Positions 886 to 63,438 of a DNA stretch of 64,000 bases are shown piece after piece. The DNA comes from Aureimonas sp. AU4 (GTDB taxonomy: Bacteria; Pseudomonadota; Alphaproteobacteria; Rhizobiales; Rhizobiaceae). The notes below the pieces were generated by a model, which ran no database searches, was not told the DNA's origin, and saw only the letters and a program-made list of their open reading frames with translations. How positions within the stretch are numbered: the stretch's first letter is position 1; every line of letters starts with the position of its first letter. Both the position numbers and the translations under genes were made by a program. Location of the stretch: NCBI RefSeq assembly GCF_001463765.1, contig NZ_BBWK01000014.1, positions 1 to 64,000 of the forward strand, read 5' to 3'.

Positions 886-4656
<3,771 letters not shown>

Positions 4657-44741: not shown

Positions 44742-44820
44742 TCGATGGCCCTGAACGTTTGATGGTTTCTCCAAGGGGCCCGAGCCCGGCGGAGCGGAAG
44801 TTCGAGGGAAACGGGCGCTG

Positions 44821-46914
44821 ATGTATGTGCTTCACATCGCCTTGCAGGGGTGCCTGCGCGCCGGAACGGTGGACTACGGGATCACCGCCGATACCGGGGG
44901 GCATATCCGGTATCTGCTCGATCTCGTCAACGCGTGCGTCTTGAGCGGGGAGGCGCGGCGCATCGTCATGGCGACGCGCGCCTTCGAGGGGGCGCCCGGT
45001 CCCGGATACGAGGCGGGCGAGGAGCGCGTCTCGGACGCCGTGTCGATCTTGCGCCTTCGCACCGACGATCCCGCCTACCTCCCCAAGGAGGAGCTCTGGC
45101 GCGAGACGCCGCGCTTCGCGGACGCCCTCGTGCGCTGGATCGAGGGACAGGACGAACGCCCCGACATGATCCACGCGCACTATGCCGACGCCGGCACGGT
45201 GGCGGCGACCGTGGAGGAGCGGCTCGGCATTCCCTTCGTCTTCACGGCCCACTCGCTCGGCCGCGTGAAGCGCGCGGTGATGGGCGGCGGGGACGATGCG
45301 CTCGACCGGCGCATCGCGATCGAGGAGGCGGCGCTCGGGCGCGCCAGCCTGGTCGTGGCCTCCTCGCGCGACGAGGCCGAGGTGCAGTACGCGGACTACG
45401 GAAGCTACGATCCCGGCCGCATCCGCGTCATCCCTCCGGGCAGCGATCTCGACGGCTTCGACGGCGCCCTCGGCTCGCGCCGGCTGGAGCAGGAGATCGG
45501 CCGTTTCCTGATCGACCCCGCCAAGCCGGTGATCCTCGCGCTCGCCCGTCCGGTCGCCAAGAAGAACCTGCCGGCGCTGGTGCGGGCCTTCGGCGAGTCG
45601 GCCGAGCTGCGCGCGCGCGCCAACCTCGTTGTCATGGCCGGCAACCGCGCCGGGCTGGAGACGCTCGACGCCGAGATGCGGGGCCAGGTCGAGGAGATGC
45701 TGCGCCTCGTCGACCGCTACGACCTCTACGGCCACGTCGCCTACCCCAAGACCCACCGGCCCGAGGAGGTGGCGGCGATCTACGCCTATGCGCGCCAGCG
45801 TCGCGGCCTCTTCGTCAATCCCGCCCTGAACGAGCCCTTCGGCCTGACGCTCCTGGAGGCGTCCGCCGCCGGGCTGCCGCTGGTCGCCACCGACAGCGGC
45901 GGGCCGAACGACATCATCGAGATGTGCCGCAACGGCGAGCTGGTGGACCCGCGCGACCCGGCTGCGATCGCCAAGGCTTGCCTTGCCATCCTGCGCGATC
46001 CCGCGCTCTGGGACCGGTATGCGGCGGCGGGCGCAAGGGCCGTCGCGGCCTACGACTGGACGCGCCATGCCCGGCGCTACGGCGAGCTCCTGCGCTCGCT
46101 CAAGGCCCCGCCGAAGGCGCCCCAGGCCCCGGCCGAGCGCCCCACGCAGCTTCTCGTCTGCGACATCGACAACACGCTGGTCGGCTGCGAGGACGGCATC
46201 CGCTCCTTCAACGGCTGGCGCCAGGAGCAGGAGGGGCTGGCCTTCGGGGTGGCGACCGGCCGCTCCTTCCACTCCGCCATGGCGATCCTGGAGCAGCAGG
46301 AGGCGCCCCGGCCGCAGGTCATGATCACCTCGGTCGGCTCTGAGATCTACCATCTCGGCCCGAACGGCACGACCTACGGCGCCGACCGCTCCTGGGAAGC
46401 GCTGGTCTCGCGCGGCTGGGAGCGCGAGCGCGTCGCGGAGACGCTGGAGGACATGCCGGGCATACGGCCCCAGGCGGCGCTGGAGCAGCGGCGCCACAAG
46501 CTGTCCTACTTCTCGGACGGCGACCCAGAAACGGCGGCGCGCGTCCACGCGCGGCTGGAGCGGGCGGGCCTGCGATGCTCGGTGATCCACAGCCACGGGC
46601 GCTATCTCGACATCCTGCCGCTGCGCGCCTCCAAGGGCACGGCGGTGAACTGGGTGCGCCGTCTCTACGGCCTCGGCCGGGAGGCGGTGTTCGTGGCGGG
46701 CGATTCCGGCAACGACATCGAGATGCTGCGCGCCATCCCGCAGGCGATCATCGTCGGCAACTTCTCGGACGGCCTGCCCGAACTGCCGGGCCTCGGCCAC
46801 ACCTATGTCGCACGCGCCACCCACGCGCGCGGCATCATCGAGGGCGTCGCCCACTTCCGCGCCAAGGCGCTTCCCTCGGGCAAGGCGCTCGTCTCGTGGC
46901 CGTCTCCGTACTGA
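44821..46914 (+). CDS. Sucrose-phosphate synthase fused to sucrose-phosphatase-like HAD domain
   Basis: 697 residues. The GT4 part (about 1-430) has GITADTGGHIRYLLDL, MIHAHYADAGT and FTAHSLGRVK, the donor block ARPVAKKNLPALVRAF and NEPFGLTLLEASAAGLP; these blocks are the ones that mark sucrose-phosphate synthases. The HAD part (about 440-697) begins CDIDNTL (D448, D450), with ITSVGSEIY and GDSGNDIEMLR, as in sucrose-6-phosphatase. Together they would make sucrose from UDP-glucose and fructose-6-phosphate. A close alternative is mannosylfructose-phosphate synthase/phosphatase, known in Agrobacterium. Likely a compatible solute. The stop overlaps the next GT gene. Confidence 0.85.
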   Translation: MYVLHIALQGCLRAGTVDYGITADTGGHIRYLLDLVNACVLSGEARRIVMATRAFEGAPGPGYEAGEERVSDAVSILRLRTDDPAYLPKEELWRETPRFADALVRWIEGQDERPDMIHAHYADAGTVAATVEERLGIPFVFTAHSLGRVKRAVMGGGDDALDRRIAIEEAALGRASLVVASSRDEAEVQYADYGSYDPGRIRVIPPGSDLDGFDGALGSRRLEQEIGRFLIDPAKPVILALARPVAKKNLPALVRAFGESAELRARANLVVMAGNRAGLETLDAEMRGQVEEMLRLVDRYDLYGHVAYPKTHRPEEVAAIYAYARQRRGLFVNPALNEPFGLTLLEASAAGLPLVATDSGGPNDIIEMCRNGELVDPRDPAAIAKACLAILRDPALWDRYAAAGARAVAAYDWTRHARRYGELLRSLKAPPKAPQAPAERPTQLLVCDIDNTLVGCEDGIRSFNGWRQEQEGLAFGVATGRSFHSAMAILEQQEAPRPQVMITSVGSEIYHLGPNGTTYGADRSWEALVSRGWERERVAETLEDMPGIRPQAALEQRRHKLSYFSDGDPETAARVHARLERAGLRCSVIHSHGRYLDILPLRASKGTAVNWVRRLYGLGREAVFVAGDSGNDIEMLRAIPQAIIVGNFSDGLPELPGLGHTYVARATHARGIIEGVAHFRAKALPSGKALVSWPSPY

Positions 46915-47765
46915 CGCTGCTGCGCGGGCGGCACGCGCATCTTCGCAACCTTCTGAAGGGCCTCGCGCAGCAGACGCGGCGGCCCGACGAGGTCGTCGTC
47001 TGCTGGATGGGCGAGGAGCCGGCGCGCGACCTGCCGGATCTCGGGCCCGTGCCGGTGCGGCACGTGCGGGTCGACGGCGATCCGATGCCGCTCGCCGCCG
47101 CGCGCAACCGAGCGGCCGACGCCGCGAGGGGCGAGACGCTGGTCTTCCTCGACGTCGACTGCATTCCCTCGGCAACGCTGGTCGAGCGCTACGAGGCCGA
47201 GATGCACGGACGCGACGCGCTTCTCCTGGGCGAGGTCCTCTACCTTCCGGCGGGAGCCGTCGGGCAGGGGGCGATCGACTACGCGCGCCTCGACGGCCTC
47301 GGCCGCGTCCACCCGGCCAAGCCGCCGATCCCGGTCGAGGGCGTTCGCGAGGAGCGCGACCACGGCGAACTCTGGGGCCTGTCCTTCGCGCTGCGGCGCG
47401 CGCGCTACCTCGCGCTCGGCGGCATGGACGAGCGCTTCACGGGCTACGGCGCGGAGGAGACCGACTTCGCCGCGCGGCTGGGCGAGGCCGGCGTTCCCGT
47501 GTTCTGGACGGCGGGCGCGCGGGCCTACCACCAGCACCACCCGGTCCACGTGCCCCCGCTCCACCAGTTCGACGCGATCCTCGCCAACGCCCGGCGCTTC
47601 CGGGCCAAGCACGGGCGCTGGTGCATGGACTACTGGCTCGGCCAGTTCCGCGACGCCGCGTTCGTCCGCTGGTCGCCGGAGGCGGGCGCGATCGAGGTCC
47701 TGCGCCGCCCGAGCGAGGCCGAGGTGACGGCCTCGCGCCGGGGCGGCGAGCAGCTCTTCAGCTGA
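46896..47765 (+). CDS. Family 2 glycosyltransferase
   Basis: 289 residues starting at GTG 46896, overlapping the sucrose-synthase-like gene by 19 bp. GT-A signs: VSVLTLLRGRHAHLRNLLKG, AAARNRAADAARGETLVFLDVDCIPS (nucleotide and metal site), then GLSFALRRARYLALGGMDERF and GYGAEETDFAARL, the chondroitin-polymerase-like galactosyl/acetylgalactosaminyl C-terminal block. Soluble. Translational coupling to a soluble-sugar synthase is unexpected and suggests its product or the timing is shared. Confidence 0.83.
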   Translation: MAVSVLTLLRGRHAHLRNLLKGLAQQTRRPDEVVVCWMGEEPARDLPDLGPVPVRHVRVDGDPMPLAAARNRAADAARGETLVFLDVDCIPSATLVERYEAEMHGRDALLLGEVLYLPAGAVGQGAIDYARLDGLGRVHPAKPPIPVEGVREERDHGELWGLSFALRRARYLALGGMDERFTGYGAEETDFAARLGEAGVPVFWTAGARAYHQHHPVHVPPLHQFDAILANARRFRAKHGRWCMDYWLGQFRDAAFVRWSPEAGAIEVLRRPSEAEVTASRRGGEQLFS

Positions 47766-47772
47766 TACCGTT

Positions 47773-48909
47773 TCAGCCGACGGCGGCGAGGGCAGGCTTG
47801 GCGTCCGAGGCCGCGCCCGCCCAGAGCTCGTCGGTCAGCCCCTCCAGCCATCCGGCCGCTCGCGCGGCGGCGTCGGGGGCGTAGAGCGGGCGGATGGCGT
47901 CCGTGTCGAGGCGGCGCGCGTCGGCGAGGAGCGACTGCCAGCCGGCGAGATCCCCCGGCCAGGCGGGGCGCGTGACCGCCGCCCCGAGTCGCACCAGCGC
48001 TTCCGCCTTGCGCGTCTGCTCACCGAAGTAGCGCCATTCCGGCATCACCGCGAGCGGGCGCCCGACGCGCGCGATCTCGTGCACCGTGTTGTCGCCGGCC
48101 GAGGCCAGAACGATGTCGGCGGCCGCCAGATAGTCGGTGACGCCGCTCACCCAGCCGAGCTCGCGAAGGTTCGAGAAATCGGTCTCGTGGCCCTCGCGGT
48201 GGGTGGGGCCGAGCGTCAGGAAGAGCGTGTCGGGCGCGGCACGCGCGGCCACCGTCAGCGGCGCGTAAGGCGTGCCGGAGCCCCCGCCGCCCGTCACCAC
48301 CACGACGATCTCGCTGCTCGGATCGAGGCCGAGCCTCGCGCGGGCCGCCGCCTTTTCCGCGACCGGCTCGCGCGTCGTGCACAGACCCCCGGAATAGAAG
48401 GTCTTGGCGCGCAGGTGCGCGGGATAGTCGTCCTGCTCCATGCGCTCGTCGAAGGGCGCGAGCATGCCGACGCTCGCCTCGTAGGAGCCGACATGGCCGA
48501 TGTCAGATCGGTCGCCGTGCATGCGGATCTGGACGGCCGGGACGCTCGCGATGCGAGACAGGAGCGCGATCTCGGCCGAAACGTCCACCACGAAGAGGCC
48601 CGTGTCGCGTTCGTCGAGATGATCGAGAATGGCGCGCATGGTCGCGCGCATCTCGCGCAAGCCCAACGGCACGCAGTGGAGGACCTGCGGGGTCGGCTCG
48701 GCATAGAGGCGCTCGGTCGGGACCCCGGCCCCGATCATGTTGGGCAGCGTCACGATCTCGATGTCGCGCTCGAAGCCGTCGAAGAGCTGGGGCCCGGCGG
48801 TCAGCACGCTGACCGGCCGGTCGCGCGCGAACTCGGCGGCGATCGCCATGGTGCGGTTGGCATGTCCCCGTCCCTGGTGGTGGACGAAGAACGTGATCGG
48901 TCTCTTCAT
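47773..48909 (-). CDS. MurG-like glycosyltransferase
   Basis: 378 residues of GT-B type: FFVHHQGRGHANRTMAIA (Gly-rich acceptor-side loop), VVVVVTGGGGSGTPYAPL and the C-terminal VSGVTDYLAAADIVLASAGDNTVHEIARVGRPLAVMPEW, where the Gly-Asp-Asn-Thr stretch replaces the usual G-G-x-x-T-x-x-E of MurG/UGT donor sites. Soluble. Only 7 bp from the convergent GT2. Upstream lies gapR in the opposite direction. Probable last enzyme of the sugar locus. Confidence 0.8.
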   Translation of the reverse strand: MKRPITFFVHHQGRGHANRTMAIAAEFARDRPVSVLTAGPQLFDGFERDIEIVTLPNMIGAGVPTERLYAEPTPQVLHCVPLGLREMRATMRAILDHLDERDTGLFVVDVSAEIALLSRIASVPAVQIRMHGDRSDIGHVGSYEASVGMLAPFDERMEQDDYPAHLRAKTFYSGGLCTTREPVAEKAAARARLGLDPSSEIVVVVTGGGGSGTPYAPLTVAARAAPDTLFLTLGPTHREGHETDFSNLRELGWVSGVTDYLAAADIVLASAGDNTVHEIARVGRPLAVMPEWRYFGEQTRKAEALVRLGAAVTRPAWPGDLAGWQSLLADARRLDTDAIRPLYAPDAAARAAGWLEGLTDELWAGAASDAKPALAAVG

Positions 48910-50666: not shown

Positions 50667-50954
50667 CTAGATCTGCTGCTTGTCGGCCGGCATGCCGTAG
50701 ACGCTTCCGCGCCCGATCTCCTCGACCGGATCGAAGCGGTTCGTCTCCTGCGCCCGCGACAGGAGCGTGATGCCGGACTGGTTGAGGTAGTCGCCGAAGT
50801 CCGCGACGTCCTTGTCGGACTGGCCTTCCGCCTTGGTCTCGTCGGAGCGCTGGGCGCGAGTCGCCTGGCCGAGCTCCAGCGGATCGCCGAGGCGCTCCTC
50901 GATCCGGTTCGAGACGATGGGCTGCGCGACGCTGCCCCCGATCGCTCCCGCCAT
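50667..50954 (-). CDS. 95-aa hydrophilic protein of unknown function
   Basis: Begins MAGAIGGSVAQPIVSNRIEERLGDP and is charged throughout (TRAQRSDETKAEGQSDKD), with one short hydrophobic run near YLNQSGITLLSR. No domain recognised and no membrane helix. Codon use fits the host. It lies between the amine oxidase and the block of motor-like genes, on the same strand as both, about 50 bp from the latter. It might be a secreted or regulatory companion of the T3SS block; nothing in the sequence proves it. Confidence 0.6.
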   Translation of the reverse strand: MAGAIGGSVAQPIVSNRIEERLGDPLELGQATRAQRSDETKAEGQSDKDVADFGDYLNQSGITLLSRAQETNRFDPVEEIGRGSVYGMPADKQQI

Positions 50955-51004: not shown

Positions 51005-51760
51005 TTAGCCTGTCCGCCGCTCCGCTTCCATGCCGAACGGCACAGCGAGCGCTCGGCGGCGACGGCGGATTTCAGCGACGAGGAGCCAGAGGAGCGCGCC
51101 GAGCGGCAGGACGACGTGAAGGCCGAGATCGAGCGCCGCGTCGAGGCGGCTTCCGATCCGCTCCAGGAGCCCCGCCGCCGCGCCGCCCGTCTCGGGCGCC
51201 GAGGCGCCCCGGCCTTGGCGCGGCGGCGCGGCATCGAGGATACGGGCGAGTTCCCGTTCGAAGGCGGCGCGGTCGAGCGGCGCGGCGTCGAGCCGGCGGA
51301 AGTCGGCGGACCAGTCGAGGCGCGGGCGCGCGGGGTCGCGCAGGGCGTCCGGCACCGACATCTCGGCGGCGATCCGCCCGCCGTGTCCCAGCGCGTCGAG
51401 AACGGCGGGATAGAGCGCGGGGTCGAGCACGAAGAGCCGCAGCGGCTCGGAGCCGCCGGCCAGCTCGGCAGGCGTGACGGGCCGGGGTGGAAGGCCCTTC
51501 TCGCGCCGTTCGATCCGGTCGGCGAAGAGGTCGACCGAGGCCGGGGCGTCGGGTGCGCCGCGCTCGAAGAGAAGCCCCACCATGTCCGGCCCGGTCAGCG
51601 GCTGCCGCGTGGTGATGCGCAGGAGCGTCCCGGCGTCGGGCGGCGCGGCCGGCCGGCGGGGCTCGGTGGTGAGCGGCAGGAGCGTCAGTAAGACCACGAG
51701 GCAGACCGACAGGACGTTGGCGGTGAGGTCCGCCACCACCGCGAACTCGAAGCGCAGCAT
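51005..51760 (-). CDS. Second ExbD/TolR-like membrane protein with two helices
   Basis: 251 residues. The N-terminal helix FAVVADLTANVLSVCLVVLLTLLPL carries an Asp (residue 11) near its start, at the place where ExbD/TolR/MotB hold the proton-binding Asp. A periplasmic-like domain (about 35-205) and a second helix LGLHVVLPLGALLWLLVAEI near 211-232 with a basic tail follow. The extra C-terminal helix is not usual for ExbD. It follows the other ExbD-like gene by 6 nt. Assignment rests on the Asp-helix and on the neighbours. Confidence 0.5.
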   Translation of the reverse strand: MLRFEFAVVADLTANVLSVCLVVLLTLLPLTTEPRRPAAPPDAGTLLRITTRQPLTGPDMVGLLFERGAPDAPASVDLFADRIERREKGLPPRPVTPAELAGGSEPLRLFVLDPALYPAVLDALGHGGRIAAEMSVPDALRDPARPRLDWSADFRRLDAAPLDRAAFERELARILDAAPPRQGRGASAPETGGAAAGLLERIGSRLDAALDLGLHVVLPLGALLWLLVAEIRRRRRALAVPFGMEAERRTG

Positions 51761-51766
51761 CGTTCG

Positions 51767-52273
51767 TCAGCCCCCGCCGAGCGCGGCGAGGCAGTCCGCG
51801 CCGGGGCGTGGCGCGGGGCGCTGGAAGCCACAGGATCGGTCGAGGCGCAGCTGGCGGACCGGCCCGCCGAGCGTTGCCGCCAGAAGCGGGTCGAGGAGAA
51901 ACGCCGCCTCCTCGCCGCCCGGCTCGATCGCGACAAGCGCCGCCCGCCCGTCGCTCACGGCTGCGCGGATCGCATCGAGCAGCGGCGCACCGGGACGAAG
52001 GGCCATGAGCGGCGTCGGTGCGCCCGTGTCCTGCGCGAGCCGCGCGCCGTCGGCGCCGGCCAGGATCACGAGCGGCTCGGCGCCCGCCACGGTGGCGGCC
52101 CCGTCGAGGAGCGCGGCGAGCGGGTCGGCCGGCGCGGCTCTTGCCAGCTGCAGCTCCGGTCTGACGAGAAAGAGGGCGAACAGGAAGGAAGCGCCGAGTG
52201 CCAGGAAGAGGTCGGCGAGCGGCACCGAGCGGATCGCCGCCTCCTCACCCTCCGCCTCCTCCTCGTCATCCAT
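51767..52273 (-). CDS. ExbD/TolR-like protein
   Basis: 168 residues: an acidic N-terminal tail (DDEEEAEGEEA), then one helix IRSVPLADLFLALGASFLFALFLV whose P-L-A-D-L pattern matches the T-P-L-I-D of ExbD, with the Asp at about residue 21. A small extracytoplasmic domain completes it. It overlaps the MotA/ExbB-like gene by 8 nt (ATGGATGA). Such proteins supply the proton-binding Asp at the centre of an ExbB/MotA pentamer. Confidence 0.65.
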   Translation of the reverse strand: MDDEEEAEGEEAAIRSVPLADLFLALGASFLFALFLVRPELQLARAAPADPLAALLDGAATVAGAEPLVILAGADGARLAQDTGAPTPLMALRPGAPLLDAIRAAVSDGRAALVAIEPGGEEAAFLLDPLLAATLGGPVRQLRLDRSCGFQRPAPRPGADCLAALGGG

Positions 52274-53384
52274 CGGCGCGCACCAGGACCTCGACCAGAC
52301 GTCGGCACTCCTGGCGAAGCTCCGCCTCGCGGCGCTCCAGGATGGCCATGAGAAGCGAGGCGACGAGACCCGTGGCAAGGCCCAGCAACGTCGTCTCGAA
52401 CTGGATCGACAGGCCGGCAAGGCTCGAACCGATGTCGACGGCCGTGGCGTCGGGGCCGTTCGTTCCCAGGCTTCCGATCGCGACGGCCAGGCCGATCACC
52501 GTGCCGACGAAGCCGAGCAGCGGCAGAAAGGCCAGAAGCGCGCGCAGGAAGCGTCGCGAGGCCGTGTGGAAGCCTTCCAGCGTTTCGCGCTCGGCCCGCG
52601 CGCCGGGCAGGGCGCAGGCCTCCAGAAGATAGGCCGAGGTGCGGCTTTCGGCCGGGCGGCCGGGCAGGGTGCGCACGACGCCCGCGATCTCGGCCGGCGA
52701 CAGGCGCGGCGCCGGACCGCCGGTGGCCAGGCGCCGGCGCGCGACGGACAGGAGCGTGCGGTCGGTGAGGTGCGCGAGCGCTGCGTCGAGAAGTGCGGCC
52801 AGGAGCACGAAGAACAGCGCGATGATCGCCGCGTGCACATAGGTCGGCCCGGCGAAGGCCCGCAGCGTGACGCCGACGGGATCGAGCGCGGCGCCCGGCG
52901 CCCACCGCCCGACGAGGCTGTAGAAGAGAAGTGTCAGCGCGGCGCCCAGACACAGCGCCGCCGCGGTGGACTGGGTGCGCGGCGTCGAGCCCTCGCGCAA
53001 GGGAGCGTTCCAGAAGAAACGGAAGCGCTCCTCGGCATTCAGCGACAGGACCCGGCCGGCGAGCAGAAGCACGAGGATCTGCGGCCAGACCGGCAGGCGC
53101 GCGGCAAGCTGCGGCAGGGGCTCGGCGGGCAGGAAGGCCAGGGGCACGAGCGCGGCGAGGAGCCCCGCGCCCCGCGCGCCCCAGCGCAGGAGCGCGCCGC
53201 GCCCGGTGAAGGCGCCGACGAGCGCCACGAGGCCGGGAAGGGGCAGGAGCGCGCGCATGGGGGCGGGTGCGCCGCCGGACGCCAGAAGCGCCTGGACGGC
53301 GAGCGCCGCGAGAAGCGCGGCCGCCAGGATCGGGGCGAGCGCGAGGCTGGCGGGGCGGCGAAGGGCGCCCCCGGTGGCCGTCAC
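52266..53384 (-). CDS. MotA/TolQ/ExbB-family proton channel with extended N-terminus
   Basis: 372 residues. The family core is at the C-terminus: FLPLLGFVGTVIGLAVAIGSL and SIQFETTLLGLATGLVASLLMAILERRE, the two pore helices of MotA/TolQ/ExbB. Ahead of it are about five more hydrophobic segments, so the protein has seven to eight helices instead of three (ExbB) or four (MotA). The start is GTG 53384, only 4 nt after the sctV stop. With the two ExbD-like genes it forms one coupled row, giving a likely proton-driven rotary stator. Confidence 0.75.
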   Translation of the reverse strand: MTATGGALRRPASLALAPILAAALLAALAVQALLASGGAPAPMRALLPLPGLVALVGAFTGRGALLRWGARGAGLLAALVPLAFLPAEPLPQLAARLPVWPQILVLLLAGRVLSLNAEERFRFFWNAPLREGSTPRTQSTAAALCLGAALTLLFYSLVGRWAPGAALDPVGVTLRAFAGPTYVHAAIIALFFVLLAALLDAALAHLTDRTLLSVARRRLATGGPAPRLSPAEIAGVVRTLPGRPAESRTSAYLLEACALPGARAERETLEGFHTASRRFLRALLAFLPLLGFVGTVIGLAVAIGSLGTNGPDATAVDIGSSLAGLSIQFETTLLGLATGLVASLLMAILERREAELRQECRRLVEVLVRADG

Positions 53385-53388
53385 AGGG

Positions 53389-55518
53389 TCAGGCCGCGGT
53401 CAGCTGCGCGCCGCCATGGGCGAGCTTGATGCGTTCCAGCGGCTGGATGTTGGCGGAGGGCGAGAGCTCCTGGTAGCTGAGGACGGCAAGGCTCGGAAAG
53501 TCGCGCTCCACGATCTTGCGCATGAAGCGGCGGATATCCATCGGCGTCAGGATCACGGGCGACATGGCGCGCCCGCCCGGATTGCCGACCACCTGCTTCA
53601 TGGCGGTGATCATCTCGCGGTGAATGTCGGGCGAGAGCGCGAGGTAGGAGGCGCCGCTCGTCTGGCGCACGGCGCCGCGCACCGCGTCCTCGATCTCCTT
53701 GGACAGGAGGAAGGCGGGGATGACGTTCTGGCCGCCGGAGAACTTGTGGGTGATGTAGCGCGAGAGCGCGCCGCGCACGTGCTCGGACAGGACGATCGGG
53801 TCCTTCTCGCGCTGGCCCCAGGTGACCAGCGCCTCGAGGATCGTGCGCATGTCGCGGATCGAGATCTCCTCCGAGACGAGGCGCTGCAGGACGTCGGTGA
53901 TCGTGGTGACCGGCAGGAGGCGCGTCGCCTCGCGCACCAGCTCGCCGAAGTTCTTCTGCATCTGGTTCATCAGGAACATGGTTTCCTGAACGCCGACGAA
54001 CTCGGCGGCGTGCGCCTTCAGGATGTGCGCGAGATGGAAGGTCAGCATGTTGGAGAGGGTCATCGTCTGGATGCCCGCCTTCTCCAAGAGCGGCAGGTGC
54101 TTCATCTGCACCCAGAGGCTCGCCGTGTTGGGCAGGAAGTCCTCGCCCCGCTCGAAGGGCACGTTGAACATGCGCAGGTTCGTCTCGGTCTCGCGCACGA
54201 TGAACCAGCCGGGGCGCGAGGCGCCCGCCGCCACCGGAATCTCGTTGACGAGGATGCGGTACTCGCCGTCCTTGAGGTTCTCGTTGAGGCGCAGGTTGAT
54301 GCCGGGGAAGGGCACGCCGAGGTCGAAGTAGAGGGCGCGGCGCACGCGCGCGACCTCGCGGTCGAGCTTGTCGGGTCGGATCGAGTTGCGCACCGAGGCC
54401 GCGATGTCGACGATCAGCGGCACGGTGAGCGCGAAGTTCACCGGCTCGACCGGCAGGCCGTCGTCGTCGTCGGGCAGCGATGGCGCTTTGCCCTGGGGCG
54501 CGAGGGCGGCGGCGAGCGCGGGCATCTCGCCCGAACGCTGCGTCTGGCCGGCGGCCTTCGACTTGCGCATGGCCAGGAAGCCGCCGCCGCCGGTCACCAC
54601 CGCCAGCCCCAGGAAGACCAGCGCGGGAAAGCCGGGGATCACCGCGAAGATCAGCATGATGACCGCGGTGATCATCAGGGCCTTGGGCTCGGAGACGAGC
54701 TGGCTCGCGATGTCGGAGCCGAGGTTGTCGTTTTCCTCCGAGGCGACGCGCGTGACGATGAAGCCGGCGGTGATCGAGACGAAGAGGGCGGGGATCTGCT
54801 GGATCAGGCCGTCGCCGATGGTGAGGAGCGAGTAGAGGTGGACCGCGTCGCCCGCCGCCATGCCGCGCTGCATCGTGCCGATGGCGAGGCCGCCGATCAT
54901 GTTGACGGCGATGATGATGAGGCCCGCGATGGCGTCGCCCTTCACGAACTTCATGGCGCCGTCCATGGCGCCGTAGAGCTGGCTCTCCTTCTCCAGCTTG
55001 TTGCGGCGGCGCTTGGCCTCGTCCATCTCGATCTGGCCGGCGCGCATGTCCGAGTCGATCGACATCTGCTTGCCGGGCATGGCGTCGAGCGAGAAGCGGG
55101 CCGAAACCTCGGCCACGCGCTCCGAGCCCTTGGTGATCACCATGAAGTTCACGATCGTCAGGATCAGGAAGATCACGAGGCCGACGATCAGGTTGCCGCC
55201 CACCACGAACTTGCCGAACGTCTCGACGATGTGGCCGGCATTGGCCTGGAGCAGGATGAGGCGCGTCGTCGAGATCGCCAGAGCCAGGCGGAAGAGCGTC
55301 GTGATCAGGAGGATCGAGGGAAAGGCCGAGAGCTGCGTGACGTCCTTGAGGTAGATCGCGACCATCAGGAGGATGGCCGAGAGCGACAGGTTGATCGCGA
55401 TCAGGATGTCGATGATCACAACCGGAAGCGGCAGGATCATCATGAAGACGATGCAGACGAGGAGGAAGGCGAGCAGCAGGTCGTTGCGCTTGGACAGGAT
55501 CTGAAGGAAGCGTGTCAT
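53389..55518 (-). CDS. sctV: Type III secretion export gate SctV (FlhA family)
   Basis: 709 residues. The N-terminal half has about eight helices with the family motifs FPSILLITTLFRLALAISTTRLIL and ARFSLDAMPGKQMSIDSDMRAG (FHIPEP-type loop), then LYGAMDGAMKFVKGDAIAG. The C-terminal cytoplasmic half (about 350-709) forms the nonameric ring. It resembles YscV/SsaV more than FlhA, and no flagellar gene is nearby, whereas translocators and chaperones are. It is the export gate through which substrates reach the needle. Followed within 4 nt by the proton-channel gene. Confidence 0.92.
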   Translation of the reverse strand: MTRFLQILSKRNDLLLAFLLVCIVFMMILPLPVVIIDILIAINLSLSAILLMVAIYLKDVTQLSAFPSILLITTLFRLALAISTTRLILLQANAGHIVETFGKFVVGGNLIVGLVIFLILTIVNFMVITKGSERVAEVSARFSLDAMPGKQMSIDSDMRAGQIEMDEAKRRRNKLEKESQLYGAMDGAMKFVKGDAIAGLIIIAVNMIGGLAIGTMQRGMAAGDAVHLYSLLTIGDGLIQQIPALFVSITAGFIVTRVASEENDNLGSDIASQLVSEPKALMITAVIMLIFAVIPGFPALVFLGLAVVTGGGGFLAMRKSKAAGQTQRSGEMPALAAALAPQGKAPSLPDDDDGLPVEPVNFALTVPLIVDIAASVRNSIRPDKLDREVARVRRALYFDLGVPFPGINLRLNENLKDGEYRILVNEIPVAAGASRPGWFIVRETETNLRMFNVPFERGEDFLPNTASLWVQMKHLPLLEKAGIQTMTLSNMLTFHLAHILKAHAAEFVGVQETMFLMNQMQKNFGELVREATRLLPVTTITDVLQRLVSEEISIRDMRTILEALVTWGQREKDPIVLSEHVRGALSRYITHKFSGGQNVIPAFLLSKEIEDAVRGAVRQTSGASYLALSPDIHREMITAMKQVVGNPGGRAMSPVILTPMDIRRFMRKIVERDFPSLAVLSYQELSPSANIQPLERIKLAHGGAQLTAA

Positions 55519-56806: not shown

Positions 56807-58063
56807 TCAGCGCAGGATCAGACGGTCGCGACGGGGGGGCGGGGCTTCGTCGCGCGAGATCCAGGTGCCCAGTTCCTCGGCCCACAGGTTCAGAAGCATG
56901 CGTGTCTGCGTGGCGAGCAGCGCCAGAAGCGCCAGAACCTTGCGTCTGCGGCGCTGCGTGCGAAGAGCCGCCAGGAGAGCGGCGACCCGAGCGGGATCGC
57001 CCAGCAGCTTGGCGAGAAGAAGTCCCGCCTCCATCTCGTCCGCCGCCCAGGCCGTCCCGGGAAGAGGAACGGGAACCTGCCGCAGAAAGCTCGCCGGTTC
57101 GATGGGGCGGGGTGGCGGCCAGCCCGGAATCATCGCGGCGTTCAGGACGAACGAGGCCAGCACGCCGGCGCGCTCCGCCTGACCCTCACTCCCGCCCGGC
57201 GTTTCTTCGCCAAGGCCAGCCCGAAGGAGAAATCCGTCGAGTGTCGAAAGGGCAGGCGCCACGGAGCTGATTCGAAGATCCGGCCTCCGCCGCGCGTCCT
57301 CTGTGGGCGCCGTCCGATCCTGCGGCCAGACCGCGCTATCCTGCTGCACGGAGGAGGTGAGGGCGCGCTCTTCGCGCAAGGAGCCGCACGCCGAGGCGTA
57401 CCCCTTGTCTGCGGCCGAGTCCGGCAAGGGGAGCTTGCCGGCAAAGCCTGCCGGCGCGGGACGTCTTTCTTCGGCGCCGGGAGCAGAGGGGGCGGAAGGT
57501 GGCCCGGCCAAAGCCTCCATGCTCGACCAAGGCTCGGAGGGCGCGAGCCGCGCCGCGGGCCCGTTGAAGGCAGGCCCGTCGGGAGCGGGCGCCGCGAAGA
57601 CGGGCGCGGCGCGCGCGGCCATGCCGGGCGCTGGTCGCGTCGCGGCAGGTGAACCCCCTTGCAGGAAGCCGTCGTTGTCCGACCGGGACAAGGCGATGCG
57701 TCCCGGGGCTGTCCCCATCTTCCGCAGTGCGTCATCCCCGTCGGCCGCCAGCCCGGGCACCGAAGCCGATTCGGCCATGGCGAGGATGCGCGGGGGGCGC
57801 AAGCCCGCCAGGGTGAAGACCGTCGCGATCCGGACAGGCGATCCCGGCGCCTCCGCCTCGAAATCGGCCGCGATCGGCCGGTCTGCGGACGGTCCATCGC
57901 TCGACGCCGACGCCGTGTCGGAAGACCGATCCGGAGCGACGCTGGCTTCCCGGCGACTTCCGGTCCCCGCGGGCACGGGACCGGGGCTCGATCCCGCGAT
58001 GTTGCGGCCGATCAAGGCGAAGAGCTGGCGCAACTCGTCCCGGTCGATGCGGGCCTCGATCAC
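56807..58063 (-). CDS. Pro/Ala-rich T3SS-locus protein with helical ends
   Basis: 418 residues from GTG 58063, which overlaps the previous stop (GTGA). A short helical start (IEARIDRDELRQLFALIGRN) is followed by about 250 residues of low-complexity Pro/Ala/Ser sequence, then a helical C-terminal part (VAALLAALRTQRRRRKVLALLALLATQ and LLNLWAEELGTW). A long disordered stretch with a folded C-terminus is the layout of needle-length regulators (SctP), but I cannot see the T3S4 motif. No membrane helix certain. Function not assigned. Confidence 0.55.
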   Translation of the reverse strand: MIEARIDRDELRQLFALIGRNIAGSSPGPVPAGTGSRREASVAPDRSSDTASASSDGPSADRPIAADFEAEAPGSPVRIATVFTLAGLRPPRILAMAESASVPGLAADGDDALRKMGTAPGRIALSRSDNDGFLQGGSPAATRPAPGMAARAAPVFAAPAPDGPAFNGPAARLAPSEPWSSMEALAGPPSAPSAPGAEERRPAPAGFAGKLPLPDSAADKGYASACGSLREERALTSSVQQDSAVWPQDRTAPTEDARRRPDLRISSVAPALSTLDGFLLRAGLGEETPGGSEGQAERAGVLASFVLNAAMIPGWPPPRPIEPASFLRQVPVPLPGTAWAADEMEAGLLLAKLLGDPARVAALLAALRTQRRRRKVLALLALLATQTRMLLNLWAEELGTWISRDEAPPPRRDRLILR

Positions 58064-58614
58064 GACGCGGAATCCGCCATCGTCCGCAGGCGCTGCGCCT
58101 CCCGCCTCATGGTCTCGGGCGTGTCGGCATCGGCATGGAGGCCGAACTGTTCGAGAGCGGCCACCGCGTCGCCCCAGCGTCGTTCGCGCACGGCCAGCGC
58201 GGCAAGGTGGAACAACGGCACCGCCCATCCGGGACGCAGGCGCGAAGCCGTTTCGAAGGCGAGACGGGCCGGCTCTATGCGGTCGGCCAGATGCAGGCAG
58301 ACCCCGTGCCCGACCCAATGGTCGGCGCTCGCCCCGTCCAGCATGCAAAGAATGCGAAACAGGGGTTCGGCCTTTTCCGGACGCCCTACCGCGAACCACT
58401 GCGTTGCACGCGCATACAGAACCTCGCCGGCTCCCGGCGGAAGCCCGAGCCCTTCGGAGAGCGGCCGGTCGGCCCGAATGGCGGAAAGGAGCGGGGAGAC
58501 CCGCGACTCCCCCAGATCCGCCAGAAGCGGGCCGAGGAGGCCGAGGACGAGGTCGCCCTCGCCCGGCTCCAGATCGAAGCGCTGCTCGAAACCGGTGCGG
58601 GGCGGTGCGTTCAC
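58060..58614 (-). CDS. TPR-like T3SS chaperone candidate
   Basis: 184 residues if started at GTG 58614, 16 nt after the preceding stop; the start is uncertain. Helical repeats: VLYARATQWFAVGRPEKAEPLFRILCMLDG, WVGHGVCLHLADRIEPARLAFETASRLRP and LFHLAALAVRERRWGDAVAALEQF, tetratricopeptide-like, as in class II chaperones (LcrH/SycD) or SctG/SctY relatives. It overlaps the proline-rich gene's start, so it may serve that protein. Confidence 0.6.
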   Translation of the reverse strand: MNAPPRTGFEQRFDLEPGEGDLVLGLLGPLLADLGESRVSPLLSAIRADRPLSEGLGLPPGAGEVLYARATQWFAVGRPEKAEPLFRILCMLDGASADHWVGHGVCLHLADRIEPARLAFETASRLRPGWAVPLFHLAALAVRERRWGDAVAALEQFGLHADADTPETMRREAQRLRTMADSAS

Positions 58615-59278: not shown

Positions 59279-59779
59279 CTACAACCGAAAGATCATGACG
59301 TCGCTTTCCGGCACAACCGTTCCCGATCGCGTGCCGGAAGCGGGCAATCCGTCCAGCATCGAGCGGTAATGGTCGGCCTGGGTCGTCACGTCCTCGATCA
59401 GCCGCTCCAGACGCTCGAGCCGGCCGCGGCGCAGCGGGTAGCGCGCATGGACGACCAGCGTTTCGGCCTGTCCCTGCCGGCGCACGAACACGCCGGCCTC
59501 GTTCAGGAGAAACCATCCCGGCGCCCCTCGCAGGACGGCGGCCCGCCAGCTTCGCCGCGCCGCGCCATCCTCGGGCGCACGCCCCGCCACGGTCTCGACC
59601 AGCATGTAGCCGCGCCCGTCATCCGACAGGTTCACCCCCTGGTTGTCGATCAGGAGACGGACGATCCCCGTCGCGTCGAAGCGCGGTGGCGAGAGGCCGA
59701 GGCGCGCGAAAAGCGCCGCGGCGGTCGGGCGGAAGCCGGTTGGGTCGGACGCGGCCGGCGCGTTGAAGCTTACGCTCAC
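59279..59779 (-). CDS. Class I T3SS chaperone (CesT/SycE-like)
   Basis: 166 residues. Pattern of class I chaperones: ALFARLGLSPPRFDATGIVRLLIDN (first helix and strand), FLLNEAGVFVRRQGQAETLVV and a last helix LERLIEDVTTQADHYRSML. These small dimers bind the N-terminus of an effector or of YopN-type gatekeepers. The start is GTG 59779, overlapping the SctB stop (GTGA), so it is made together with the translocators. Confidence 0.65.
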   Translation of the reverse strand: MSVSFNAPAASDPTGFRPTAAALFARLGLSPPRFDATGIVRLLIDNQGVNLSDDGRGYMLVETVAGRAPEDGAARRSWRAAVLRGAPGWFLLNEAGVFVRRQGQAETLVVHARYPLRRGRLERLERLIEDVTTQADHYRSMLDGLPASGTRSGTVVPESDVMIFRL

Positions 59780-60747
59780 CGGGTGATCGCGCGCATCATC
59801 TCGACCTTGTTCTCCTGCATCTCCTTCACGAAGTTGATGACCTGCTTGATCATGTCGTCCATGGCCTGCTGGACGTCCTTGGCGATTTCGGCCTTCTGCT
59901 GATGGGACGTGGCCTCGGCGGCAGCGACCGATCCCTCGGCCTCCTCGCGCTTGGCCTGCGCCTGTTCCTTGGTGTCGAGCCCCTGGCCGAGCTGGCGGCC
60001 GATGTCGCCGCCGCGGGACGTCAGATCGGCGGCCGACTGGTAGCGCTGCAGCATCTTGTCGATCTGCGCGCCCTCGTTCGAGGCGATCTTGAACTTCATC
60101 TCGGCGTTCAGGACGTCGGTCTTGACCTTGTCGGTCGCGAACTTGCCGGCATCGGTGAATGTGTCAGCCTTCTTCGTCGCCGCCGTCAGCTCCTGCTGCG
60201 CCTTCGACATGTTGTTGGCGGCGTCGGCGCTCTGCTTGAGGCTGCCGACCTGCTTGTAGAGCGAGATGCCGCTGCCGATCATGGCGATGCCGGCGGTGAC
60301 GATGCCGATCGTCATCGACAGGACCGCGCCCTTGTCCATCTTGTCGGCGGCCTGATTCATGTCGGCGGCCTGCTGAATCGACTGGGCCTTGGCCTGCTCG
60401 TAGCCGGCCGTGCGCTGGTTCATGGCCTGCGACCGGCGATCGTTGCTCTGCTGGATCATCAGATTGGCAAGGGTGCTGATGACGCTGTCGTAGTCGAAGT
60501 TGCCGCGCCCCGTCGACAGGCCGGCCGCCGAAAGGGACTCGCTTAGGGCCGAGAGTTCGGCGTCGGACAGGGGCGGCGGAGGCGCCGGCGGGGTGTAGGA
60601 GGCCGGAACGCCCGGGAGCTGCCCGCCCGCCGCGCCGGCGTTGCCGGCGCCGGTCGTCGTGCCGGTGCCTGACGTCTGCTGGGTGCCGGTCGTCGTGTTG
60701 TAGTTGACGAAGGCCGGATTCGGGGTGTTGCCGATGGTCGTGTTCAT
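59776..60747 (-). CDS. sctB: T3SS minor translocator SctB (YopD/SseD-like)
   Basis: 323 residues: a Thr/Asn/Pro-rich N-terminus (about 1-60) without Sec signal, helix-rich middle, one hydrophobic segment at about 140-163 (AVLSMTIGIVTAGIAMIG), then a long coiled coil to the C-terminus. One membrane segment is the mark of the minor pore-forming translocator. It follows the two-helix translocator by 22 nt. In SPI-2, Edwardsiella and Yersinia the order is chaperone, SctE, SctB, as here. Confidence 0.8.
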   Translation of the reverse strand: MNTTIGNTPNPAFVNYNTTTGTQQTSGTGTTTGAGNAGAAGGQLPGVPASYTPPAPPPPLSDAELSALSESLSAAGLSTGRGNFDYDSVISTLANLMIQQSNDRRSQAMNQRTAGYEQAKAQSIQQAADMNQAADKMDKGAVLSMTIGIVTAGIAMIGSGISLYKQVGSLKQSADAANNMSKAQQELTAATKKADTFTDAGKFATDKVKTDVLNAEMKFKIASNEGAQIDKMLQRYQSAADLTSRGGDIGRQLGQGLDTKEQAQAKREEAEGSVAAAEATSHQQKAEIAKDVQQAMDDMIKQVINFVKEMQENKVEMMRAITR

Positions 60748-60769: not shown

Positions 60770-61951
60770 TCAGCCGGCGAAATGCGCGCGGGCGGTGAAC
60801 TGGGCGCGGTCGTTGCGCGCCTCCATGATGCCGTCCAGAACGGCGTTGAACCGGTCGCCCGCGGCCATGAGGCGTGTGAAGGCCTGATCGATGGCGTCGT
60901 TCAGCATGGTGATCAGCGCTTCCTCCTCCTTGGAGTTGGCCTCGGCGCGCTTGGCGTCGGCATTGGCCATCGTGGCGACGCCCTTGTAGGCGGTCGAGGT
61001 GATGCCGGCGGCCTGGGTGCCGATCGTGTTGGCCGCCTCGGCGATGTTGGCGCCTCGCGAGGCCCACTTCATGGACTGGCTCACGCCCTCCTCGAAGGCG
61101 CCGTTGCGCAGCAGGGCCCAGGCGATCTTCAGACCTTCCTTCATGGCCTCGCGCGTCGCGGTCATGATGCTGTTGCCGGCCATGCGGGATAGCTGGAACG
61201 TGGCGCTGGCGACGGACCGCACACCGCTGACGATACCGACGCCTCCGCCCGCAAGGCCGCACACGGCGCCGACGACGGCGACGGTCACCTGGAAGGCCTG
61301 CTCGTGCTTGCGCGCCTCCTCGTCCGAAAGGCCCATGGATTTGGCCGAGTAGAAGCCGATGCCGTTGCCGGTCGCGACCGTGACCGTGGAATCGGCCGCC
61401 GAGATGAAGGAGGCAACCGCCGCGGCGATCAGCAGCGCGCCCACCACGGCCAGCGCGCCGCCGGTCAGCGGGCTGGTGGCGATCGCCACCACCGCCACCA
61501 CCACGGCGATCACGGCGCCGAGCCATTCGAAGGCGAGCTTGATCTTGTCCGCGATCGAGGCCGACTCCTTGGCCTCCTTCGCTTCCTTGATTTTGGCGGT
61601 CATCTCGTCGATCTGACGGCTCTGCTCGCCGATGCGCGAGCGCACGCTGGCCTGGTCGTTCTTGATCTTGGCGTCCTGGGTCTTGGACTCGGTGTCGCGC
61701 ATGGAGATCGCGACCTCGACCAGGAGCACGTCGACCTGGGCCTGCGTCATGTTGAGCCCGAGCGAGGCCATGCTGGCGCGAATGTCGGAGATCGTGGCGC
61801 CGTTGGCGGGGCTGGGCGCCGGGGCCGGGCCGCTCTGGGCGGTCGTGCCGCCGCCGACGGATCTCTGCTTGATGACCTCGCTTCCCAACACGCGGTTGAG
61901 AGCATCGTTGGTGATCTGGTTGACGCTGCTGGGACCGTTGACCTGCGACAT
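60770..61951 (-). CDS. sctE: T3SS major translocator SctE (YopB/SseC-like)
   Basis: 393 residues: a coiled coil about 85-130 (AKIKEAKEAKESASIADKI), then a hydrophobic hairpin about 144-160 and 165-185 (GAVIAVVVAVVAIATSPLTGG), a third hydrophobic stretch near 225-255 (VTVAVVGAVCGLAGGGVGI), and a helical C-terminus. No Sec signal. The hairpin before a coiled coil marks YopB/IpaB/SseC, the main pore protein inserted in host membranes. It lies next to its LcrH-type chaperone and to SctB. Confidence 0.85.
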   Translation of the reverse strand: MSQVNGPSSVNQITNDALNRVLGSEVIKQRSVGGGTTAQSGPAPAPSPANGATISDIRASMASLGLNMTQAQVDVLLVEVAISMRDTESKTQDAKIKNDQASVRSRIGEQSRQIDEMTAKIKEAKEAKESASIADKIKLAFEWLGAVIAVVVAVVAIATSPLTGGALAVVGALLIAAAVASFISAADSTVTVATGNGIGFYSAKSMGLSDEEARKHEQAFQVTVAVVGAVCGLAGGGVGIVSGVRSVASATFQLSRMAGNSIMTATREAMKEGLKIAWALLRNGAFEEGVSQSMKWASRGANIAEAANTIGTQAAGITSTAYKGVATMANADAKRAEANSKEEEALITMLNDAIDQAFTRLMAAGDRFNAVLDGIMEARNDRAQFTARAHFAG

Positions 61952-61984: not shown

Positions 61985-62539
61985 TCAGGCGGCGGCATCG
62001 AGCGTGGCGAGTAGGCGTTCGGCCTGGTCGGCCGCCTCGGCGCGACCCTTGCCCTGCCGGGCGAAAGCTCGCGCCGCCCCCAGCGCATCACGGGCGTTGT
62101 CGACCTCGCCGGCCGCCATGCAGCATTCGCCCAGCCGCAGGTAGCCATCGGGATTGGTGGCATCGAGGGCCAGGAACTGAAGGTAGAAGTGAGCGGCCTT
62201 GGCGATGTCGCCCTCGGTCTGAAAGGAAACGCCCATCAGATAGGGGGCGCGCGCCTCCAGCGGGTCGAGATGCATGACCTGCAGCGCCAGGTCGCGGGCG
62301 GGCTGGTGGCGGCCGGCGGCCAGGAGCTGGCTCCCCTGCGTCAGCAACGCGGTCATGTGTTCGGTGGAAAGGCCGAGCGCGTTGCGCAGCGTCAGGCCCT
62401 GACCCATGAGGTCGGCGATGCCCTTCGTGCGCTCGTCCATCTCGACGCCGTCCATGAGGTCGGCCACCATGTTGCTCGCGCGGGCGACGAAGTCCTTGGG
62501 ATCGTCCTGACCGGGAAACAGGCCGTCGAGGATGGACAT
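61985..62539 (-). CDS. Translocator chaperone, LcrH/SycD type
   Basis: 184 residues with three tetratricopeptide repeats: TQGSQLLAAGRHQPARDLALQVMHLDPL, YLMGVSFQTEGDIAKAAHFYLQFLALD and YLRLGECCMAAGEVDNARDALGAARAF. This repeat pattern and the position directly ahead of SctE/SctB are those of the class II chaperones SycD, SscA and EscA. It keeps the translocators soluble before export. About 33 nt separate it from sctE. Confidence 0.85.
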   Translation of the reverse strand: MSILDGLFPGQDDPKDFVARASNMVADLMDGVEMDERTKGIADLMGQGLTLRNALGLSTEHMTALLTQGSQLLAAGRHQPARDLALQVMHLDPLEARAPYLMGVSFQTEGDIAKAAHFYLQFLALDATNPDGYLRLGECCMAAGEVDNARDALGAARAFARQGKGRAEAADQAERLLATLDAAA

Positions 62540-62632: not shown

Positions 62633-63055
62633 TCAGACCTCCTCCTTCTCGGGTCCGCTCTCGCCGTGGCGCAGATATCCCTCCAGGGCGTCGCGCGCGC
62701 GGGCCGGCTCGCCCAGTTCGAACAGGCAGCGGGAGCGCAGGTAGCGGCGCATGCGCTGGCGTTCGTTCAGGCGGTAGCTGCCGAAGCGCTCGGAAGGGAA
62801 GGTGCGGTCGAGTTCGTCGAGAGAGGCAAGCGCCTCGCCCCAGCGTCGCTCCAGAAACAGGAGCACGGCCTGCGCCAGCATGACCTCCGCCGTTCCGTCG
62901 CCCAGACGCCGCAGCGCCTGCGCCAGCACCAGCGCCCGCTCGTGGTAGCCGTGACGAAGCTGGACGTAGACGGTCAGAAGCAGGAAATCGCGCTGGCGCC
63001 GCGACAGGCGCGTGGAGGACCCGCCCCGCTCGGACGGGCGGGACAGGTCGCTCAT
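62633..63055 (-). CDS. sctY: T3SS chaperone SctY (YscY-like)
   Basis: 140 residues. The N-terminal part LSRRQRDFLLLTVYVQLRHG followed by ERALVLAQAL lines up with YscY from memory (R-Q-x-x-F-L-L-L, Q-L-x-x-G-x-x-E-R-A). TPR-like helices follow. YscY is the small partner of YscX and is needed for early export. The start overlaps the stop of the SctX-like gene (ATGA), matching the yscX-yscY pair. Confidence 0.7.
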   Translation of the reverse strand: MSDLSRPSERGGSSTRLSRRQRDFLLLTVYVQLRHGYHERALVLAQALRRLGDGTAEVMLAQAVLLFLERRWGEALASLDELDRTFPSERFGSYRLNERQRMRRYLRSRCLFELGEPARARDALEGYLRHGESGPEKEEV

Positions 63056-63438
63056 CCGCGCAGGAGCATGGCGAGCGCGGCGCGAACTTCGGTATCCATG
63101 GTCATGTCGTCGCCCAGGAGGCGTCCCGCCGCGCCGAACAGGTCCCGGTCCTCGGGCTGGAGGTCGGCGGCCTGGCTTTCGCGCTCGAAGAAGAGCTGCA
63201 GCCCGGCACGCACGTCGCTGAGCGCGGCGGGCTCCAGAAGACCCGGATCGAGATTGGCGGGGATCAGGAGATCGGGAAGGCGCTCGTCGAGACGCGGCCG
63301 GTTCACGATCTCGTCCAGAGCCTGGACCTCGGGCAGGAAGGCGGGCGCGGCACGTCCATCCGCTGGCAGATGGACCTCGTCCTCGTGCTGCCACAGCGTG
63401 ACCGACTCGACGCCGACATCGAACGGCTTGATGCGCAT
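63052..63438 (-). CDS. sctX: T3SS protein SctX (YscX-like)
   Basis: 128 residues. VHLPADGRAAPAFLPEV resembles the L-P-x-D-G-x-x-x-x-P-x-L block of YscX, and the end EVRAALAMLLRG matches its helical C-terminus. YscX is an early exported component that binds YscV through YscY. Assignment depends on the coupled SctY-like gene downstream and is less sure than that one. A 161-bp gap without a visible gene separates it from the tip/filament candidate upstream. Confidence 0.55.
   Translation of the reverse strand: MRIKPFDVGVESVTLWQHEDEVHLPADGRAAPAFLPEVQALDEIVNRPRLDERLPDLLIPANLDPGLLEPAALSDVRAGLQLFFERESQAADLQPEDRDLFGAAGRLLGDDMTMDTEVRAALAMLLRG

Follow-up and report, generated by a model that had tools for sequence, protein, structure and literature searches.

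The first 64,000 nucleotides (the window) of a 158,256-base contig in the 4.49-Mb genome of Aureimonas sp. AU4 hold part of a type III secretion system (T3SS) gene cluster in which sctV, the gene for the inner-membrane export gate subunit, leads directly into three genes for membrane proteins that look like a stator. We refer to these as B (a channel protein), D1 and D2 (two partners, each with an aspartate-bearing membrane helix) and to the set as the triad; a small gene, X, follows. From sequence comparisons, the triad is a real, conserved, and clade-specific accessory module of a Ysc-type injectisome, stator-looking and with two partner proteins. Our preferred reading, held with moderate confidence, is that sctV-B-D1-D2-X is an export-gate operon that would provide the injectisome with a dedicated, stator-like, proton-driven accessory complex helping or gating secretion.

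The sctV-B-D1-D2-X operon

The genes of the block, in the order in which they are read, are as follows.

53389..55518, minus strand: sctV, inner-membrane export gate subunit (TIGR01399, 920 bits against a cut-off of 692, equivalog)
52266..53384, minus strand: B, MotA/TolQ/ExbB-family channel protein, 372 amino acids, GTG start (PF01618, 34.4 bits against a cut-off of 22.9)
51767..52273, minus strand: D1, 168 amino acids, with an acidic N-terminus, an Asp-bearing membrane helix (P-x-x-D), and then a domain with a nearly invariant Cys
51005..51760, minus strand: D2, 251 amino acids, with an N-terminal Asp-bearing helix (D-x-x-x-N/S/T), a central domain, a C-terminal hydrophobic segment, and a basic tail
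50667..50954, minus strand: X, a small conserved protein of 95 amino acids after D2, with a homologue directly behind sctV in the triad-less genome G348

The coupling is tight and, by coordinates, exactly as the initial annotation gave it: 4 nt separate sctV from B, B and D1 overlap by 8 nt, and D1 and D2 lie 6 nt apart. The assignment of B to the MotA/TolQ/ExbB family also held, given that PF01618 is matched above its cut-off by the window protein and at E 0.01 or better by all 21 homologues. D1 and D2 matched no family in Pfam or NCBIfam scans of the window proteins, and X had no NCBIfam family match. In comparison with Aureimonas jatrophae, the three small genes have ratios of nonsynonymous to synonymous substitution rates (dN/dS) of 0.15, 0.18, and 0.34, i.e., they are under purifying selection. 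This, together with the open frames, rules out an annotation artefact or read-through.

Residue and topology counts were taken from 21 aligned sets of B, D1, and D2, with membrane segments assigned by hydropathy. Asp21 of D1 and Asp11 of D2 are invariant (21/21 each), and each occupies one of only two invariant columns in its protein. Both lie near the start of the N-terminal membrane helix, as is expected of ExbD and TolR proteins. Elsewhere in D1, Pro18 is found in 12 of the 21 sequences and Cys148 is nearly invariant; residue 15 of D2 is Asn in 16, Ser in four, and Thr in one. Thr295 and Thr331 of B, which we take to be the TolQ/ExbB channel threonines, are also invariant (21/21). Aligned with hhalign, the helix segments of D1 and D2 show a resemblance (E 2.5e-4 over 26 columns, probability 43%).

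The initial annotation called D1 ExbD-like and described D2 as having an Asp at the start of a single N-terminal helix. The position of the Asp is borne out in both proteins; the remainder needs revision. The Pfam ExbD family (PF02472) was matched by none of the 21 D1 and none of the 21 D2 sequences at E 1 (a threshold to be read with the fact that HMMER filters discard most matches above about E 0.1), and hhalign of D1 and D2 against four ExbD/TolR-like sequences gave E 0.12 and 0.14, which is not significant. "ExbD-like" is thus best treated as a putative label for D1 and D2, based on the Asp in the membrane helix, where it sits there, and the operon context.

The helix of D2 is also not single: a second, C-terminal hydrophobic segment is present in 17 of 21 sequences, the window's D2 included. 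Among the four without it, L071 ends at a contig end and L068 is only 129 amino acids long. Because the second segment is followed by a basic tail, the sequences suggest that D2 may be a hairpin with both ends cytoplasmic. D1 has one hydrophobic segment in 15 of 21 cases and a second, weaker one in six, including that of the window. The TolR/ExbD layout, in which one membrane helix is followed by a C-terminal domain free in the periplasm, was not found by hydropathy. B has eight hydrophobic segments in the window (six to eight across the set), and ExbB and MotA have three or four. In Methylobacterium oryzihabitans, D2 (L049:6806-7132 / L069:6806-7129) is reduced to 108 amino acids, with the Asp and two hydrophobic segments kept and the domain between them mostly gone.

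The genome has three other places that match PF01618 and two that match ExbD, comprising two channel-plus-ExbD pairs and one further channel gene on the contig that encodes flagellar FlhA (TIGR01398 above cut-off). Because these other pairs lie elsewhere in the genome, B-D1-D2 is an additional, dedicated set.

Linkage to sctV and inheritance with one SctV clade

The initial annotation asked for a survey of whether the three genes only happen to sit beside sctV, and the genomes show that they are not chance neighbours. When the collection was scanned with the B alignment alone, blind to sctV, 30 loci were found, and in 20 of them, all alphaproteobacterial, sctV is directly upstream. The remaining 10 are eight cyanobacterial loci, one in Albimonas, and one in an Omnitrophota metagenome-assembled genome (MAG). 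Behind B, profiles of D1 and D2 match in 20 of the 20 sctV-linked loci, in part by construction since many of these sequences were in the profiles; the D1 of L063, L070, L071, and L086 and the D2 of L062, L063, L068, L070, L071, and L072 are independent of them. Of the 25 triad clusters, 24 have D1 and D2 after B; in the remaining one (L052) the contig breaks off within B. The junction between B and D1 is an overlap of 4-17 nt in 17 of 19 cases and a gap of 2 or 6 nt in the other two (starts chosen by an in-house gene caller).

Searches that began from SctV or from relatives of AU4 agree. Within the order, SctV was matched at E 1e-150 or better in 31 of 397 genomes, and in the close group (68-80% identity) B stands behind sctV in G141, G177, G301, G289, G281, G399, and G333. 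B is rare: it was found in four of 121 relatives, and one of the four (G022) has an ordinary-looking ExbB operon (a weak, 30% match, by eye ExbB-ExbD-ExbD-like), which was set aside. Carriers of the triad beside sctV span Hyphomicrobiales and Rhodobacteraceae/Paracoccaceae and include Aureimonas jatrophae and leprariae, Antarcticirhabdus aurantiaca, Rhizobium oryzicola, Bradyrhizobium sp. Y36, Prosthecomicrobium hirschii, Methylobacterium hispanicum and oryzihabitans, Breoghania corrubedonensis, Tabrizicola sp., and Rhodobacter sp.

The B profile separates this family sharply. Across 337 genomes of the class and 299 of the phylum there was nothing between the scores of sctV-linked loci (E 3e-106 or better) and E 1e-18. 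In these genome scans the high-scoring B family occurs only behind sctV, the neighbours having been inspected at five of 11 non-window loci of one class/phylum scan and not at one further unlinked locus of the other. Against the genome's own MotA-, TolQ-, and ExbB-like loci (a very small database), the profile of T3SS-linked B gave E 0.0015 or worse; because these loci score so poorly, the profile is not just catching any member of the family. We also rejected ordinary ExbB at the sctV-linked loci. The Zorya defence system (ZorAB) was considered and set aside, as PADLOC gave no better than weak ZorA matches, the best at E 3e-4, which lie on the channel portion of B, and no match for D1 or D2. 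A tree of B with other family members was not used because its branches were very long and the genome's own TolQ row was a wrong frame of 117 amino acids.

The triad also travels with SctV. Pairwise SctV distances correlate with those of B, D1, and D2 (r 0.82, 0.77, and 0.81, respectively), and the distances of B, D1, and D2 correlate among each other (r 0.85-0.88); none of 2000 permutations was as high in either case, and species relatedness contributes to these correlations. There was no sign of plasmid carriage, with B matching 0 of 72,556 plasmid records. Of the 263 plasmid records with an SctV match, two rhizobial plasmid T3SSs were inspected, and in both sctD comes directly after sctV.

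In a tree of 69 SctV rows plus FlhA (a quick search with support from the Shimodaira-Hasegawa-like approximate likelihood ratio test only, and with several open forks), the closest relatives of the window's SctV are from Aureimonas species. One clade of 31 rows (support 100) contains 25 with the triad, five without it, and one whose contig ends at sctV. The triad is next to sctV in none of the 38 rows outside the clade, where about 1.3-1.5 kb behind sctV was inspected. Among these outside genomes, searches of the whole of G730, G572, and G695 found no B at E 1e-5; G280, G319, G336, G379, and G106 gave no B match at E 1e-10; and G662 has a weak one (3.6e-12) away from sctV. The simplest history would be one gain followed by two or three losses (the tree count is three changes with open forks and four with other labels included). 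By eye, transposase-like frames lie near the sctV end in G357 and G434, two of the five triad-less rows.

A proposed proton-driven accessory complex and its alternatives

How might such a module work? Under our preferred reading, B would form a pentameric membrane channel with the Asp-bearing helices of D1 and D2 at its core. These would most likely be present as a D1-D2 pair, one copy each, because no triad cluster of sufficient length to show the two genes has one without the other. Protons would cross at the two Asp against the threonines of B, and this would produce motion or force in the extracytoplasmic domains of D1 and D2. Instead of a peptidoglycan-binding domain, the second helix of D2 may hold the complex in the inner membrane, beside the export apparatus. 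Motor output would then help or gate secretion through the injectisome, as an accessory rather than a core part; contact with the injectisome is suggested by the operon.

The proposed 5:2 arrangement is that of known motors in which a pentameric channel surrounds a dimer (PMC9389320; this and the papers cited below are represented by extracts). One of these, GldLM, powers type IX secretion (PMC9389320) and, by description rather than by sequence, resembles the proposed complex in being a dedicated inner-membrane motor that is driven by protons and coupled to protein secretion. It differs in serving another secretion system, in having two components, and in the long periplasmic shaft of GldM. 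The initial annotation pointed instead to AglRQS, the gliding motor of Myxococcus, and in composition the comparison is apt, as there too one MotA/TolQ-like channel goes with two Asp-helix partners (PMC9389320). AglQ and AglS both carry the conserved Asp helix, and whether they pair is given as unknown (PMC9389320). The likeness is one of composition only: AglQ and AglS are described with TolR-like peptidoglycan-binding domains (PMC9389320), none was detected by Pfam in D1 or D2, and D2 usually has a second hydrophobic segment. With TolQR and ExbBD the triad shares the PF01618 channel and, in D1, the acidic N-terminus and the P-x-x-D at the start of the membrane helix; it differs in that D1 and D2 match no ExbD profile, in having two partners rather than one, and in the greater number of hydrophobic segments in B.

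Several observations weigh against a motor that serves secretion. Five rows within the SctV clade have no triad next to sctV (G348, G357, G434, G422, and G398), and searches of the whole genomes found no B in the first three and nothing beyond weak hits, at E 2e-7 or worse, in the other two. G348 is the most informative of these. Its SctV is 80% identical, and X is directly behind sctV. Within about 59 kb, tblastn found SctX, SctY, the LcrH-like protein, the translocators, SctD, the secretin, SctI, SctJ, SctL, SctN, SctQ, SctR, SctS, SctT, and SctU, and no B, D1, or D2. Because G348 keeps a complete-looking T3SS without the triad, the triad is accessory and not needed. SctV itself is regarded as a user of the proton motive force (PMC10333785), in which case no additional engine is called for. 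Nor is sharing an operon in itself proof of physical contact. Across 21 sequences each, D1 and D2 match no ExbD, TolR, or OmpA profile (the OmpA-like peptidoglycan-binding domain being a feature of MotB), and sequence searches gave no convincing solved structure for either; the B profile finds a single chain in the PDB, and weakly (MotA 6ysl, E 0.049). A second hydrophobic segment, as in D2, would also be unusual for a rotating axle.

A bolder form of the same idea gives the T3SS a rotary motor of its own, built with two partners, in which protons flowing through B would turn or strain a D1-D2 axle acting directly on the export gate or basal body, as GldLM does for type IX secretion, and the motor would have been regained long after the flagellar MotAB was lost. 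This is possible, although we regard it as doubtful. The Myxo T3SS are described as lacking MotAB (PMC3459982).

The main rival is an independent envelope motor of the Tol kind, co-expressed with the T3SS without touching it, whose proton flow would remodel peptidoglycan or steady the outer membrane during injectisome insertion. It would account for a triad that the T3SS can dispense with, and similar triads without a nearby sctV do occur, in cyanobacteria, Albimonas, and genome G724. At these loci a channel gene precedes genes for two Asp-helix proteins, of which the second carries D-x-x-x-N, and no sctV or other T3SS gene was found in the stretches examined around them. Since such T3SS-free triads exist, a module of this kind can presumably work on its own. 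We nevertheless consider the envelope motor unlikely, because the high-scoring B family is confined to positions behind sctV, triad distances track those of SctV, and D1 and D2 have no peptidoglycan-binding domain recognisable by Pfam. Two of the T3SS-free triads are located as follows.

L087:6166-7954 (Albimonas): T3SS-free triad with a PF01618-like channel
L124, about 1250-3322 (G724): T3SS-free triad with a PF01618-like channel

Among the cyanobacteria, the pattern is present in four of six inspected loci (L077, L078, L079, and L083; Synechococcus and a cyanobacterial MAG). The frame of the second partner did not show in L074 and L080, and L081 and L082 were outside the inspected set. The G724 locus is the best unlinked B match in the class and phylum scans. 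In a scan that did not include L124, the D2 profile matched none of the T3SS-free triad loci and the D1 profile matched only L074 (E 9e-4). These channel-plus-two-partner modules matched no named system in this analysis, and the T3SS triad may derive from them. By eye, coiled-coil-looking and TPR-like frames lie beside the triad of Albimonas.

Less probable again is a regulatory ion channel, or a sensor of contact or of the proton motive force, in which B-D1-D2 passes protons or senses load and signals SctV to open or to switch substrates without doing mechanical work. The direct coupling to sctV and the accessory distribution would suit it, and the D2 hairpin (with the second segment in 17/21) fits a membrane-tethered sensor. 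The M. oryzihabitans D2, pared down to two hydrophobic segments joined by a short loop and yet kept, also counts in its favour. However, the invariant Asp/Thr set is what we take to be that of force-generating stators, and Pfam shows no sensor domain in B, D1, or D2. That ExbBD-like genes are merely hitchhiking in the operon, by chance and with no role in secretion or the envelope, is very improbable: their absence from five genomes inside the SctV clade would fit, but the same order is kept behind sctV across many families, and the genes show purifying selection and invariant residues.

As a genetic statement, the proposal of the initial annotation that a T3SS has its own stator-like module is supported, because the triad is conserved beside sctV and both Asp are invariant. 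We could not find an earlier description of the pairing of triad and injectisome. Among the titles and abstracts listed in searches of open-licence papers, none describes a T3SS stator, which is weak evidence of absence, and none is mentioned in the extracts of PMC9389320, PMC12505986, PMC9603459, PMC8780523, PMC4295842, PMC3459982, and PMC10333785. The proton motive force is held to power type III secretion by way of SctV, assisted by the ATPase, through a molecular mechanism described as not known (PMC10333785). The comparison of a triad-bearing injectisome with its close triad-less relative in G348 offers a genetic test of whether a separate proton-driven motor powers or gates export. If our preferred reading is correct, type IX secretion would no longer be the one secretion system with a dedicated motor of the 5:2 type, and this would be the second. 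The findings also suggest that channel-plus-two-partner modules form a broader class, with members in cyanobacteria and Alphaproteobacteria.

The surrounding injectisome cluster

Beyond the operon, the window contains the following genes of the cluster.

63052..63438, minus strand: sctX (TIGR02502, above cut-off)
62633..63055, minus strand: sctY-like chaperone (NF052415, 41 bits, below the cut-off of 70; scored within the longer frame 62633-63394)
61985..62539, minus strand: LcrH/SycD-like chaperone (TIGR02552, 55 bits, below the cut-off of 105)
60770..61951, minus strand: translocator-like protein, SseC family (PF04888, above cut-off)
59776..60747, minus strand: second translocator-like protein (by position only; no Pfam family match of note)
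59279..59779, minus strand: CesT-like chaperone (PF05932, 21.7 bits, just below the cut-off of 22)
56807..58399, minus strand: W, with the motif NAAMxPGWPP near its C-terminus

In the next 20 kb of the contig (L003), SctI, SctJ, SctN, SctR, SctS, SctT, and SctU score above a curated cut-off, and SctL, SctQ, SctD, and the needle protein SctF were matched below theirs. The injectisome around the triad looks complete. Assignment to the Ysc family follows from the SctV equivalog and SctX, both above cut-off (TIGR01399 and TIGR02502), SctX being presumably a marker of that family. The SctY-like, LcrH-like, SseC-like, and SctF-like needle proteins are further likenesses, and the window's SctV is 53.9% identical to AscV of Aeromonas salmonicida.

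The cluster departs from Ysc-family systems in two respects. The first is the presence of B-D1-D2-X behind sctV; where sctV matches records from Aeromonas and Yersinia, the annotation under the match names an LcrR-family gene (from an annotation listing, in which gene order was not inspected). The second is the secretin (L003:13177-15585), which is nearer to GspD than to SctC profiles and passes neither cut-off (341 bits against 351 for GspD, 101 bits against 238 for SctC); with GspD as the best profile, the Ysc family's own secretin type (SctC) was not recovered. Secretins resembling those of type II secretion systems are described for the chlamydial T3SS (PMC3459982). Homologues of the L003 secretin are present in several other clusters of the same SctV clade.

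We considered W as a fourth partner of the triad and kept it as a lead only. It is present in 15 of 25 triad-bearing clusters and was not found in the other 10, several of which are cut by contig or stretch ends, and it is absent from the triad-less cluster of G348. W is possibly a partner or a chaperone. In G348 (L043), the place between the TPR genes and sctV where W sits elsewhere is taken by a small chaperone-like frame and, by eye, a patatin-looking frame of 686 amino acids.

A CRP/FNR-like regulator (L003:18629-19375, weak family matches) adjoins the T3SS genes, and by eye a frame resembling it lies behind the triad in Breoghania (L072). A block of glycosyltransferase-like genes, also recognised by eye, adjoins the T3SS cluster at 42511-48909 of the window.

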